Assembly (NCBI GenBank): GCA_027490575.1 | Contig: JAIXXV010000039.1 | Location: 1-38,954, forward strand | Origin: a bacterium | Lineage (GTDB): Bacteria; Patescibacteriota; Minisyncoccia; Phycocordibacterales; CAIZLB01 | DNA length: 38,954 bases | Reading direction: 5' to 3' | Shown here: in pieces, positions 21,177 to 37,348 of the stretch | How positions within the stretch are numbered: the first letter of the stretch is position 1 | Layout: every line of letters starts with the position of its first letter | Notes under the pieces: model-generated | The model's input: only the letters and a program-made list of their open reading frames with translations | What the model was told of the DNA's origin: nothing | Databases searched by the model: none | Translations under genes and position numbers: made by a program

Positions 21177-21236
21177 CTCACCTACCAAGACGGGCAGTGA
21201 ACTCACACATTCTACATTTTTTTAAGAAAAGATAAA

Positions 21237-21264
21237 GACCTGTACCACTTTCGTGGCACAGGTC
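21237..21264 (-). terminator. Terminator of orphan gene 21291-21683
   Basis: A 12-bp stem (GACCTGTRCCAC type, one mismatch) with a 4-nt loop is followed on the minus strand by TTTATCTTTTC. Confidence 0.85.
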
Positions 21265-21290
21265 GGCAACACTCTAAACAAGCAGTATAG

Positions 21291-21683
21291 TCAAGACCCA
21301 GGCATCAATGCTTTAACATAGTCTCTCGTCGGTTGCAACTTATGCTGCATCAAGCTGATGAATTCATTTGGCAGATTGGCATTGTCCCCGGACTGGTGAG
21401 CTTCCACCAAGACAGTGATGAGGGTGTTAATATCACCGAGTTCATCTTCAAGCCAGACAGCTCCTCTAAGCAGAGAGATTACAGCTGAGACCACCATGTT
21501 CTTTTGGTCAAAACGAAGTCGTCTCCACAGACGGAGGGTTTCTTCTCCTGAAACGAAAGAAAGAGTTGTAACCTCCAAATCCCTTCGCTCAAGTTCTGAT
21601 ACCACTTCATCAACCTCAGACTCGTCGATAGGTCGAGAGTGTAGTTGAATTCCTGACGGCAAAGTAATACTAACTATTCTCAT
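21291..21683 (-). CDS. Orphan 130-residue protein, unknown
   Basis: This protein matches no family I know. It is soluble, without signal or membrane segments, acidic near residues 20-35, with probable helices at 20-35, 48-75 and 80-98 (VVSAVISLLRGAVWLEDELG). It is one of four orphan genes of almost identical length (128-132 residues) inserted between housekeeping operons, each with its own promoter and terminator. By eye it is richer in G+C than its neighbours. Its 5' leader shares a conserved folded element with that of gene 35711-36100. No clear Shine-Dalgarno site is close to the ATG, although AAGGTGAG lies about 28 nt upstream. Confidence 0.75.
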   Translation of the reverse strand: MRIVSITLPSGIQLHSRPIDESEVDEVVSELERRDLEVTTLSFVSGEETLRLWRRLRFDQKNMVVSAVISLLRGAVWLEDELGDINTLITVLVEAHQSGDNANLPNEFISLMQHKLQPTRDYVKALMPGS

Positions 21684-21703
21684 TTGATTTACACTTTGGT
21701 GAT

Positions 21704-21762
21704 ACGTTCAACTCACCTTGCTCCCTTTCAGAGCCGTTGAATGTTTATTGTTGAAAGAACGT
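21704..21762 (-). promoter_or_regulatory. Conserved 5' leader RNA element, copy 1
   Basis: On the minus strand the leader begins with ACGTTC (21757-21762), which pairs with GAACGT (21704-21709). Inside is the hairpin GCTC-TGAAAGG-GAGC (21720-21734). The sequence CACGTTCTTT..TAAACATTCAAC.GGCT.TGAAAGG.AGC is shared with copy 2 at 36121-36178. Confidence 0.55.
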
Positions 21763-21796: not shown

Positions 21797-21847
21797 TCTC
21801 TATTGTCCATCACCCTCAATTATTAATTCTTAATTTGCCCCCTGCCC

Positions 21848-21903
21848 CAAACTGCTCCCTGCTATCTGATATCTGTTAACTGCTAACTGCTATCTGTTAC
21901 CTA
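21848..21903 (-). repeat. Heptamer array after ftsI
   Basis: Eight units in phase on the minus strand run TAGGTAA, CAGATAG, CAGTTAG, CAGTTAA, CAGATAT, CAGATAG, CAGGGAG and CAGTTTG. The ftsI stop is bases 5-7 of the first. A G-rich stretch and AATTAAGAATTAATAATT follow. Confidence 0.88.
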
Positions 21904-26011: not shown

Positions 26012-26052
26012 TAATTTTTGTGCTGTTTTTTTGGCGAGGGAATTTTGGATAT

Positions 26053-26085
26053 AAAAAAGCGCCGTACCTTTGCAGGTAAAGCGCT
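26053..26085 (-). terminator. Terminator of orphan gene 26124-26522
   Basis: GCGC outer and TACCT/AGGTA inner pairs form a hairpin followed on the minus strand by TTTTTTAT. It is nearly identical in sequence to the terminator at 26674-26709. Confidence 0.8.
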
Positions 26086-26123: not shown

Positions 26124-26522
26124 TCAGATGATGATCTTGACCAGTATTCCCAGCTTGTTTCCGAGGTCGATGAAAGCGAATGTAGAGCCGAAAGGCGGTG
26201 TGACATATGGAACTTCTGATTGACGGCAGATGAGTCGGCCGTATTTCTCGAAAAACCATTTGGCAAACCCCTCTGGACCACTAGCAAAATCAGAGTTTCG
26301 TCTCCACATTTCAACGATGATGTCTTCGTTTTCACCCAACCCTACAGAGTATCTGCCTGGAGTCTGCTCCTCTTGTCTTAGAACAAGTGCAAGCCAAGCA
26401 GAGAGTTCATACTCTAGCTTGATAATGAAGTTAAACTTGCCCGGGTCGTAATTACCAACTTCACCTGCCTTGATAGACAGAATCCTTTTTTCAAAGCTTG
26501 CTAATCCATGTAATACTAACAT
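26124..26522 (-). CDS. Orphan 132-residue protein, unknown
   Basis: ATG 26522 is preferred over the longer frame from 26552 because AGAAGGAGG, a full Shine-Dalgarno site, ends 4-5 nt before it. The soluble product is rich in aromatic residues (ELSAWLALVL, EGFAKWFFEKYG) and ends in a hydrophobic strand (KLGILVKIII). No family is recognised. It is one of the four similar-length orphan cassettes and directly neighbours another (26740-27126), with almost the same terminator. Confidence 0.72.
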   Translation of the reverse strand: MLVLHGLASFEKRILSIKAGEVGNYDPGKFNFIIKLEYELSAWLALVLRQEEQTPGRYSVGLGENEDIIVEMWRRNSDFASGPEGFAKWFFEKYGRLICRQSEVPYVTPPFGSTFAFIDLGNKLGILVKIII

Positions 26523-26584
26523 ATTGCCTCCTTCTGTTAAATTTAAGAACATATCGAGGTTCTTTTTAGATCCACGATATTTAG

Positions 26585-26613: not shown

Positions 26614-26673
26614 TAGTTTAAGGTGTAAGCTTTATTTAAATCAATGACTAGCCTATGTGCCTATTTTTGTTAT

Positions 26674-26709
26674 AAAAAAGCGCTGTACCCTTGCAGGTAA
26701 AGCGCTTTT
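26674..26709 (-). terminator. Terminator of orphan gene 26740-27126
   Basis: AAAAGCGCT/AGCGCTTTT flank a GTACC..GGTA core; T-runs occur on both strands. Its core differs by only two bases from that of 26053-26085. Confidence 0.85.
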
Positions 26710-26739: not shown

Positions 26740-27126
26740 CTAATTGGCTTTGAACAAGATAGCCTTACCATCTCTGATTAGCATAGCCTTGAACTCACAA
26801 ACTTTTTCAGAGTTAGGCCTTGATTTGGATACGACAGACTGACCGACAGCTCTCCAGAGAAGATTCACAAGCGTTTTCACATCTGTTACCTGCTGAGCAC
26901 TTCCTTCTTTTGCCCATGATACAACTACCTCAGAAGTTATCTTGCGCTCTACTTTTTCTCTCCACAAAGGAAGGTTTATCATAGTTGTGACCGCACTTTC
27001 CAAAGATTCTTTGCCTATGAACATGACGATATCGTTCATCTTCATATCTGCTGATTGATCACTTAACGACACCACACGTATCTTGATGATACCGTTATTT
27101 TTTATCGAAACTATTCCTGTATTCAA
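26740..27126 (-). CDS. Orphan 128-residue protein, unknown
   Basis: The start codon is TTG 27126, chosen because AAGGAGG lies 8 nt before it. The protein is soluble with mixed strands at the ends (GIVSIKNNGIIKIRVVSL; CEFKAMLIRDGKAILFKAN) and a helical middle with WREKVERKITSEVVVSW. No known family; no similarity to the other orphan proteins is visible apart from length and cassette organisation. Confidence 0.72.
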   Translation of the reverse strand: MNTGIVSIKNNGIIKIRVVSLSDQSADMKMNDIVMFIGKESLESAVTTMINLPLWREKVERKITSEVVVSWAKEGSAQQVTDVKTLVNLLWRAVGQSVVSKSRPNSEKVCEFKAMLIRDGKAILFKAN

Positions 27127-35560: not shown

Positions 35561-35639
35561 TGTGGTGGGTTGGTTTGGTTTTATATGATTTACACTAAGG
35601 AAAATAAGTGCATGGTTGCACGGCGTATAAATTAAAATG

Positions 35640-35673
35640 CTGGTAGGCCTGGGAAATACCCATTACCTACCAG
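35640..35673 (-). terminator. Terminator of orphan gene 35711-36100
   Basis: CTGGTAGG and CCTACCAG enclose GGG/CCC pairs; on the minus strand the sequence continues CATTTTAATTT. Confidence 0.75.
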
Positions 35674-35710
35674 CAGTTATAAATGCTTTTTCGCACTCAA
35701 ACCAAGGTTG

Positions 35711-36100
35711 TCAATATTTCTTGACAGGTTTGAATTTCACAGCTCGCAACTCCTGTCCACGACAGTAGATTGTCCAGATACCGAATTCTTGTTTACCGTA
35801 AGGGACATTCCTGTCGTAAGGTCGTTCCATCTCCTCACTTTCTGGCAAAGCATACAAGAGGTGGATTAATGTCTCAGTCTCCCTCTCATTTTCAGAAAAG
35901 TGCTGCATCATAGGCTTTTCTTGACGTAAAGCTAAGCAGTCAGCAAGAACTCTGAAACATTCTCTAGGGTCGCGCTTTAAAAACTCCTTTCCTGCATCTG
36001 ATCTTTGGTAGGAAATCCACACAGAGTGTGCATCATACACAACTTCTTTGAGCAGCTCAGCAAGGAGTTGCTCGGGGTTCATACTTTCGTATTCTTTCAT
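35711..36100 (-). CDS. Orphan 129-residue protein, unknown
   Basis: ATG 36100 (MKEYESMNPEQ) is chosen because AAAGGATAAGACA puts a Shine-Dalgarno site before it; the frame extends to 36148 without reason. The product is soluble, acidic and helical in the first 90 residues (EQLLAELLKEVVYDAHSVWISY, CFRVLADCLALRQ), with a beta-rich, basic end (GIWTIYCRGQELRAVKFKPV). No family is recognised. It shares a conserved 5' leader with gene 21291-21683, the strongest sign that the orphan cassettes form a functional class. Confidence 0.75.
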   Translation of the reverse strand: MKEYESMNPEQLLAELLKEVVYDAHSVWISYQRSDAGKEFLKRDPRECFRVLADCLALRQEKPMMQHFSENERETETLIHLLYALPESEEMERPYDRNVPYGKQEFGIWTIYCRGQELRAVKFKPVKKY

Positions 36101-36120
36101 TGTCTTATCCTTTTGTGCAT

Positions 36121-36178
36121 CGTTCTGAGCACAGTGGCTTCCTTTCAAAGCCGGTTGAATGTTTAACTAAAAGAACGT
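36121..36178 (-). promoter_or_regulatory. Conserved 5' leader RNA element, copy 2
   Basis: On the minus strand CGTTCT (36172-36177) pairs with AGAACG (36121-36126), enclosing GGCTT-TGAAAGG-AAGCC (36136-36152). Compared with copy 1, the loop TGAAAGG is identical while one stem pair changes from C-G to T-A. Confidence 0.55.
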
Positions 36179-36184
36179 GATGTA

Positions 36185-36213
36185 TTAATACCACGTTGCT
36201 TTTAGCTGGTCAA
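36185..36213 (-). promoter_or_regulatory. Promoter of orphan gene 35711-36100
   Basis: On the minus strand: TTGACC (36208-36213), 17-nt spacer, TATTAA (36185-36190). The start should fall near 36178, exactly at the conserved leader. Confidence 0.6.
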
Positions 36214-36242
36214 TATGGAAGCTGAAAGTAAAATTTCAACTA

Positions 36243-36284
36243 CTAATTACTAATTACTAACTGTTAATTGTTATCTGTTAATTC
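36243..36284 (-). repeat. Heptamer array after rseP, 6 units
   Basis: GAATTAA, CAGATAA, CAATTAA, CAGTTAG, TAATTAG and TAATTAG on the minus strand. The rseP stop is bases 5-7 of the first unit. Confidence 0.92.
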
Positions 36285-37348
36285 ACCAACACAAACACAT
36301 CCTTCACCGTCACTACAATCATCAAAGTTATAAGTAGCAAGAAACCGACCGCATTTAGCCATAGTTGAACTTTTGGACTAACATCTCTTCTAATAATACT
36401 TTCTATAAGCACTATAAGTAGTCTGCCTCCATCAAGCGCAGGAAACGGTACTAGGTTTATAACTGCCAAGTTGGCAGATATGATAGCCGCGATGACGAGT
36501 AGACTTGCAAAACCAGTCTTAGCTGACTCACCCACCACACCTGCAATGCCTACCGGACCACTGACTTGCTTGAGACTAGCCTCACCTATGAAAATACTTT
36601 TAACAAAGTTTCCTAATCCTACAGCAGTATTGATTGTTAGGTGGTATGTTTGTTTTGCACCATTGTAAAATGCGCTGAAGAATCCTGCTTTGAATTCTGC
36701 ATATACATCCATCGATATACCTACAGCTTTTTTGTTAGCAACTATTCCCTCTTCTGGTGTCACAGGTACTATCTCAACACTATCATTTGCTCTTTGTACT
36801 TTAAAATCTATGCTGTTTTCTGCTGATGCAATGATACCTTGAACCTCTTCTGGTGTTTGTGTTGGTATAGATGATACTTCCAGTATCCTGTCACCTGGCT
36901 TCAATCCTGCTTTTTCAGCAGGGCTTCCTGGAGAAACCATGACTATAGTTAGTTCTGGATTTTTGATCTGATCGGCAGGCATAGCTTCTGTCGAGACCTT
37001 AGTACCGAGCATCAATGAACCTGATAGCAAGACCCATGCAAGTAGTATGTTGAATGTAACACCAGCAACTAGTACCACAGCCTGTTGCCATCTAGGTTTT
37101 GAAAGCATGCTGTCTGGTGTCTTGGCATCATCTGCATTTTCACCATATATCTTTACATAACCACCTAGAGGCAGGAGGTTGATTGCATAACGAGTCTTTC
37201 CCCACACCCAACTGAAAAGTCTAGGAGGAAAACCTATAGCAAACTCGTCGACACGTATTTTGAAAAGTCTAGCTGCAAGAAAATGCCCTAGCTCATGTAT
37301 GAATACAAGTAGTGTTAGAACTAAAAGGAAAATGATTGCAGTGGACAT
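36278..37348 (-). CDS. rseP: Site-2 protease RseP
   Basis: This is an intramembrane zinc metalloprotease. The HExxH motif is H18-E19-L-G-H22 in the first membrane helix, a PDZ domain lies at about 105-195, and LVPFPALDGGR near residue 300 provides the third zinc ligand (LDG). About four membrane helices and a length of 356 residues fit the family. It cleaves membrane-bound regulators or remnant signal peptides. It follows frr on the same strand, 58 nt away. Confidence 0.95.
   Translation of the reverse strand: MSTAIIFLLVLTLLVFIHELGHFLAARLFKIRVDEFAIGFPPRLFSWVWGKTRYAINLLPLGGYVKIYGENADDAKTPDSMLSKPRWQQAVVLVAGVTFNILLAWVLLSGSLMLGTKVSTEAMPADQIKNPELTIVMVSPGSPAEKAGLKPGDRILEVSSIPTQTPEEVQGIIASAENSIDFKVQRANDSVEIVPVTPEEGIVANKKAVGISMDVYAEFKAGFFSAFYNGAKQTYHLTINTAVGLGNFVKSIFIGEASLKQVSGPVGIAGVVGESAKTGFASLLVIAAIISANLAVINLVPFPALDGGRLLIVLIESIIRRDVSPKVQLWLNAVGFLLLITLMIVVTVKDVFVLVN

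Follow-up and report, generated by a model that had tools for sequence, protein, structure and literature searches.

Two similar leaders in the window

The minus strand of the window, the whole stretch of 38,954 nucleotides that was analysed, carries two units in which a short gene is preceded by a leader with two hairpins, HP1 and HP2, and followed by an intrinsic terminator. Their features are given below, where R1 denotes a covariance model built from the two leader copies, A and B, and R2 a nine-sequence covariance model.

36185..36213, minus strand: promoter predicted for A (TTGACC and TATTAA separated by 17 nt), 6 nt 5′ of the RNA
36098..36178, minus strand: copy A of the leader RNA, beginning at the predicted 5′ end (ACGUUC) and reaching as far as the AUG; 101 bits with R1, 83.4 bits with R2
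36136..36152, minus strand: HP1 of A, GGCUUU-GAAAG-GAAGCC, with the Shine-Dalgarno-like GAAAGGAAG inside
36114..36133, minus strand: HP2 of A, UGUGC/GCACA with loop UCAGAACGAU; contains the conserved GUG and shows two double changes relative to copy B
36121..36177, minus strand: putative pseudoknot of A between the 5′ end and the HP2 loop, CGUUC (36173-36177) with GAACG (36121-36125); invariant in A and B, covariation uninformative
35711..36100, minus strand: gene A, 129 aa, without Pfam or PHROG match
35634..35674, minus strand: intrinsic terminator of unit A, predicted from sequence
21681..21762, minus strand: leader RNA copy B; 104.5 bits with R1, 67.8 bits with R2
21720..21735, minus strand: HP1 of B, GGCUCUGAAAGGGAGC, with GAAAGGGAG
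21698..21717, minus strand: HP2 of B, GGUGA/UCACC with loop GUUGAACGUA
21707..21741, minus strand: P3 of B, UUCAAC (21736-21741) with GUUGAA (21707-21712)
21291..21683, minus strand: gene B, an orphan of 130 aa without Pfam match
21228..21268, minus strand: intrinsic terminator of unit B, predicted from sequence

A preliminary description had noticed that the leaders of these two genes share about 50 nt while their proteins look unrelated. Both observations were confirmed, and the match turned out to be even longer: it begins in the −10 region and continues up to the ATG. The leaders are 80% identical, with a local alignment score of 116 (shuffles: mean 50, sd 6.9, maximum 80) and a blastn E-value of 2.8e-6 in a search of 415 kb of the same genome. 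A comparison of the proteins of genes A and B, on the other hand, found no similarity. The homology of the two leaders spans the promoter through the start codon, well beyond the initial 50 nt.

The leaders also share a predicted fold. Their consensus folding energy was −11.3, compared with −3.0 (sd 2.0) for column shuffles, and only one of 1000 shuffles was as good. The hairpin with UGAAAGG described initially, together with its compensating change (U-A to C-G), is real and its pairs are kept in both copies; HP2, which had gone unnoticed, adds two further compensating changes between A and B. The outer pairing of ACGUUC with GAACG proposed in the same description does exist; its two partners are the 5′ end and the HP2 loop, however, which makes it a pseudoknot and not an enclosing stem. 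This pairing is limited to A, B and two members in G004, and a family-wide test of it was weak (209/5000). When HP1, HP2 and the 5′-end pairing are taken together, all 15 pairs hold in both copies, three of them through a double change, and none is broken.

Seven-base intergenic repeats (CAGATAACAGTTAGCAG..., AATTAAGAATTAAGAATT) are found throughout the genome, including the regions of the window near 36240-36290 and 21830-21900.

A leader RNA family in Paceibacteria

The preliminary description had proposed to derive a covariance model from both copies and to look for covarying matches upstream of short orphan genes. This search, performed on a sample of 397 metagenome-assembled genomes of the same order, was successful. 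With R1, two members scored strongly, both in G004, and other genomes gave weaker ones; R2 retrieved about 24 members, spread over roughly 18 genomes. E-values for the two models were as low as 1e-17, although such model E-values are rough. One of the members is a third copy in the bacterium's own genome (L290, G000:C6:32179-32258). All members (24/24) are located directly 5′ of short genes, on the coding strand. An independent DNA pattern, applied to 84,980 genomes, matched five Patescibacteria records (three from Ca. Taylorbacteria, one from Ca. Harrisonbacteria and one uncultured), some of which are the same genomes as the model matches. One record, L255, matches G001, a genome of the window's genus, which places that genus in Ca. 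Taylorbacteria. A pattern search of 2.9 million viral contigs found no member.

Several weak model matches (L246-L248, L300-L302 and L252 from Lachnospiraceae) were judged to be chance or coding sequence and were excluded. Pattern scans for a hairpin with a fixed ATTCAAC revealed nothing further because the family does not conserve ATTCAAC; success came with the covariance model alone.

Comparison with Rfam 15 yielded only tRNA in the window and no match above the family cut-off at 20 member loci, and Rfam in E-value mode gave one chance-level match only for both leaders. No published description of the leader RNA was found in the literature, which was covered in part. A and B are copies of a structured 5′ leader RNA family of the ultra-small Paceibacteria (Ca. 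Taylorbacteria and relatives) that is apparently undescribed so far, and both the family search and the covariation support the initial proposal of a new cis-acting leader RNA before unrelated orphan genes. A recent duplication of the promoter region, with a hairpin that arose by chance, would fit the 80% identity of A and B but not the presence of covarying members with the same architecture in many families of the order, and this explanation can be discounted for practical purposes.

Architecture of the leader

Promoters of the TTGACA-N16-18-TATAAT type lie 4-11 nt 5′ of the RNA in about 20 of the 24 members, and the conserved 5′ end of the element (nAGYUCUUUGAA or ACGUUCUUU) is therefore likely to be the transcript start. 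The 5′ end is followed by a variable spacer, HP1, two nucleotides, HP2, 10-17 nt and the AUG. HP1 consists of a GGCU/AGCC stem in which (U)GAAAGGAAG, an extended Shine-Dalgarno sequence, occupies the loop and the 3′ arm, whereas the stem of HP2 (GGUG..CACC) occurs in the variants UGUGC/GCACA, GGUGA/UCACC and GGUGU/ACACC.

A third helix, P3, connects the HP2 loop with the 4-6 nt that end the spacer preceding HP1. Its versions include CGGG/CCCG, UGGG/CCCA, CUGG/CCAG, AGGGA/UCCCU, UGGC/GCCA, CAGGUU/AACCUG and UUGGA/UCCAA. P3 was absent from every model, and its covariation was evaluated by comparing the pairing of each spacer with its own loop and with swapped loops. Across all members the own loop scored 10.7 and swapped loops 8.1 (sd 0.41; 0/10000), and the same held for the 15 members outside the training set of R2, with 11.4 for the own loop and 9.3 (sd 0.50) for swapped loops (0/10000). 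Counting pairs in the alignment gave 20 double-change cells compared with 6.5 in shuffles (0/500), and slid controls reached at most 9. In subfamily 1 (A, L243 and L251) P3 is weak and the pairing between the 5′ end and the loop (ACGUUC with GAACG) is found instead. The predicted fold is a pseudoknot composed of HP1, HP2 and P3, for which no probing data exist.

Shine-Dalgarno sequence and start codon

A Shine-Dalgarno-like HP1 loop is present in 22 of the 24 members, about 45 nt 5′ of the AUG, whereas only 5 of the 24 have a Shine-Dalgarno sequence near the AUG. In the third copy of the own genome (L290) the HP1 loop contains AGGAGG and the stem has covaried to GGUU/AACC, a combination that supports a putative Shine-Dalgarno role of the loop. 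L303 has lost the HP1 loop sequence and shows CAGGAG before the AUG instead; L296, an otherwise good member, lacks a Shine-Dalgarno sequence at both places, HP1 and the vicinity of the AUG. The contigs that were read did not include the 3′ end of the 16S rRNA, and its pairing with UAGAAAGGA(A/G)G is assumed. Among ordinary genes of the host (at least 150 aa, 415 kb of the own genome), Shine-Dalgarno-like motifs occur in 8% compared with 7% in the control, a figure obtained with start codons that were chosen mechanically. With this reservation, Shine-Dalgarno initiation seems to be reserved for accessory orphan genes in this genome.

The conserved GUG within HP2 raises the question of which codon is used. 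As a start of the gene itself, GUG was rejected on frame statistics, its phase relative to the gene being uniform (9/7/8) and its frame running for anything from 1 to 159 codons. The distance in nucleotides from the GUG to the AUG of the gene, on the contrary, is constant at 33.25 ± 2.2 nt, a value that is mildly biased because an AUG was accepted only if it opened an ORF of 45 or more codons. Since the phase is random, the frame length variable and the nucleotide distance constant, the gene is considered to start at the AUG, with the fold serving as a spacer. The same figures weigh against the GUG being the start of a short upstream frame whose translation would open HP2 and feed ribosomes to the gene by coupling, since neither the length nor the phase of such a frame is constrained. 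Several details nevertheless speak for it: the GUG lies 4-5 nt 3′ of GAAAGGNNG in the members examined, its G is kept where the pairing partner has been lost (L288, L292, L295 and L299), the stop of the frame and the start of the gene overlap as AUGA in A, L291, L296 and L303, and B, L243, L251 and L244 have two-codon frames. Coupling through an upstream frame is, on balance, considered improbable.

Unrelated downstream genes and exchange of reading frames

The 24 proteins encoded downstream of the leader, 53-249 aa in length, are mutually unrelated, and a Pfam search with 20 of those located outside the window produced only one above the cut-off (L286, Gcw_chp). A shared protein family for A, B or the other downstream genes was rejected, no similarity having been found. 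The genes do not belong to a single pathway, as those of a metabolite riboswitch would, and there is no ribosomal-protein gene among the 24. A single, distant homologue of gene A (L240, 119 aa, 30% identity, E 7e-10) occurs in a different family of the order, and its leader lacks the element; because this homologue lies behind an unrelated leader, gene A and its leader are inferred to travel separately.

Riboswitch, protein-binding leader and small RNA target had been offered as possible functions in the preliminary description, and the first of them becomes less likely because the downstream genes are unrelated. More generally, binding of a small molecule or of a cellular RNA-binding protein could stabilise or melt the pseudoknot, so hiding or exposing the Shine-Dalgarno sequence, in which case the genes of the units would constitute one regulon. 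The compact pseudoknot, its conserved unpaired residues (UGAAAGGA, and AAACAAU in the HP2 loop) and the Shine-Dalgarno sequence inside it are reminiscent of translational pseudoknot riboswitches. In addition, full-length folds of both window copies offer a second solution, with ACAUUC paired to the Shine-Dalgarno region 5′ of the AUG, as would suit a switch. However, the downstream genes have no common function or recognisable pathway, and there is no candidate for the ligand or the protein, so that a regulated switch remains possible but rather unlikely.

Comparison of conserved loci provided a view of the units in which the leader and the gene can be followed independently. In three families (G353, G078 and G079) a member is located between dnaK and dnaJ, both assigned by eye from the sequence, and is antisense to both. 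Both flanks align across the families and the leaders give scores of 56, 31 and 51 compared with about 14 ± 2, whereas the scores of the ORFs (18, 18 and 16, compared with about 17 ± 2.4) are at the level of shuffles. At a second locus, G075 and G185 share a downstream neighbour (81% identity over 1247 nt; flank score 572 compared with 20), and their promoter and leader are also 81% identical (leader score 119 compared with 14), but the ORFs are unrelated (21 compared with 17.3, sd 2.4). The upstream side could not be included at this locus, where the contig of G075 ends. Terminators, too, are common to units with unrelated ORFs. The units are cassettes whose ends stay constant and whose contents can be replaced.

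The exchange of ORFs between leader and terminator at fixed loci, and the recurrence of the same frames elsewhere with other ORFs (L287a/L288), would also be compatible with a DNA recombination site, an attC-like hairpin for cassette exchange in which any RNA function is secondary. Against this, the fixed spacing to promoter and AUG, the Shine-Dalgarno content and the tolerated G-U pairs point to RNA. An attC site is expected 3′ of the ORF with RYYYAAC..GTTRRRY ends; in 24 of 24 cases the element described here precedes the gene, always on the coding strand, and the 3′ ends of the units are mostly intrinsic terminators. Neither an array nor any occurrence in viral contigs (pattern search) was found, and a primary role in recombination is considered very unlikely.

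Terminator loop motifs CTGAAATATGG; GGTCATGGAGAGTAGGAAGAGGG; CGAGATGGTGGGTTTT (L292/L294, L245/L287/L288/L289, L243/L244/L296) are found behind unrelated ORFs in different families.

A separate class of CA-rich leaders

A third gene of the window, 26740-27126, had been thought to carry a partial match to the leader. This gene is not a member: it has no R2 match and belongs to a class of unstructured, CA-rich leaders. The class came to light through the 11-mer AAACATTCAAC, which was considered as a core motif and rejected, as it led to these leaders and not to the RNA family. Besides 26740-27126, the 11-mer led to L003/L187, to L015/L063 and, upstream of uvrA, to an adenylate-kinase-like gene. 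The short orphans of the window's genus that were reached in this way have GGAGG close to the ATG, and none of these genes belongs to the RNA family. When all leaders in 415 kb were viewed, this second class was seen to be CA-rich and unstructured, with a strong Shine-Dalgarno sequence 5-8 nt before the start. Its units consist of a single orphan ORF of 78-355 aa with its own terminator, at the following loci:

L168+1781, L169+3572, L171+8540, L173-8930, L174-8051, L178-11839, L186-10830, L187+8811 and L187+11427
26740-27126 and 26124-26552 of the window

Only one of 19 proteins tested from this class was above the Pfam cut-off. The two adjoining orphans of the window have terminators that are 91% identical (26663-26706 and 26042-26085) and ORFs that are unrelated. 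Within the family, the region between uvrB and uvrA is a hotspot (L187, L218-L228) that carries highly diverged adenylate-kinase-like genes in most relatives; in the own genome it contains a 189-aa orphan and a divergent 87-aa orphan.

Proposed function

The interpretation that is favoured, at somewhat better than even confidence, is that the leader of these single-gene cassettes serves translation initiation irrespective of the cargo, the ORF being exchanged while the leader and the locus persist. The RNA would start at or near the transcription start and fold into the pseudoknot of HP1, HP2 and P3. HP1 would then display the extended Shine-Dalgarno sequence (GAAAGGAAG; AGGAGG in L290), and the HP2/P3 module between it and the AUG is inferred to act as a compact spacer. 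The 30S subunit could dock on the hairpin and reach the AUG at a fixed distance. Such a leader would work with any gene and would provide a constant front end for units made of promoter, leader, variable short ORF and terminator. Sequence analysis is the basis for the homology, the fold, the covariation, the spacing to promoter and AUG, the position of the Shine-Dalgarno sequence, the unrelated cargo and the exchange of ORFs at two loci. Use of the Shine-Dalgarno sequence, promotion rather than repression of initiation by the fold, and the mode of ORF exchange are inferences made without expression, probing or ribosome data.

A broader proposal, put forward only tentatively and with rather less than even confidence, is that Paceibacteria keep chromosomal expression frames, each with a strong promoter, a pseudoknot leader displaying a Shine-Dalgarno sequence and a terminator, that exchange unrelated short orphan ORFs at conserved loci such as dnaK-dnaJ. 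Shine-Dalgarno initiation would serve largely such accessory genes, and the core genome would do without it. Candidate-phyla bacteria have tiny genomes rich in short orphan genes, and neither the origin nor the expression of these genes has been explained. One structured RNA that marks orphan genes across an order offers a way to find them, and the presence of the leader predicts their expression as single-gene units. The loci compared here show that the reading frames give way to others behind a regulatory front end that stays. The leader would also be a natural pseudoknot that apparently bridges a long distance between Shine-Dalgarno sequence and start codon.

Comparison with known systems

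Integron gene cassettes carry attC 3′ of the gene and are organised in arrays. The units described here resemble them in being single, promiscuous small ORFs with constant flanks, and differ in that the structured element of Paceibacteria is 5′, has its own promoter and forms no arrays. A hairpin between Shine-Dalgarno sequence and AUG is found in mRNAs of the T4 gene 25/38 type, which are single cases with a plain hairpin. In them, as is proposed here, a folded spacer shortens a long distance between Shine-Dalgarno sequence and AUG, but they do not form a conserved pseudoknot family. The S15 rpsO and S4 alpha operon leaders contain an mRNA pseudoknot around the initiation region and autoregulate ribosomal-protein genes. 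The likeness to these leaders lies in a pseudoknot near the initiation region; the difference is that none of the 24 genes behind the leader RNA encodes a ribosomal protein.

The preQ1 riboswitch classes have a small pseudoknot with the Shine-Dalgarno sequence within or adjoining the fold (PMC11625349). Together with SAM-II, they share with the leader a small pseudoknot and a Shine-Dalgarno sequence in or near it. In contrast, the genes that they precede share a pathway, and their fold lies towards the 3′ side of the leader, whereas the Paceibacteria leader precedes unrelated orphans and has a hairpin between its Shine-Dalgarno sequence and the AUG, which are about 45 nt apart. In the tisB mRNA, which encodes a type I toxin of E. 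coli, a 5′ standby-site pseudoknot governs ribosome loading at a distance from the start codon (PMC7708055). This site loads ribosomes for a sequestered ribosome binding site about 100 nt downstream and is controlled by an antisense RNA (PMC7708055). Both cases have a 5′-proximal pseudoknot in a short mRNA, a position that for the Paceibacteria leader is indicated by the promoters just upstream; unlike tisB, the Paceibacteria leader has the Shine-Dalgarno sequence itself in a hairpin and uses one element for many unrelated genes. In conclusion, the leader is a member of no family tested, and in its working principle it resembles the pseudoknot leaders of tisB and preQ1.
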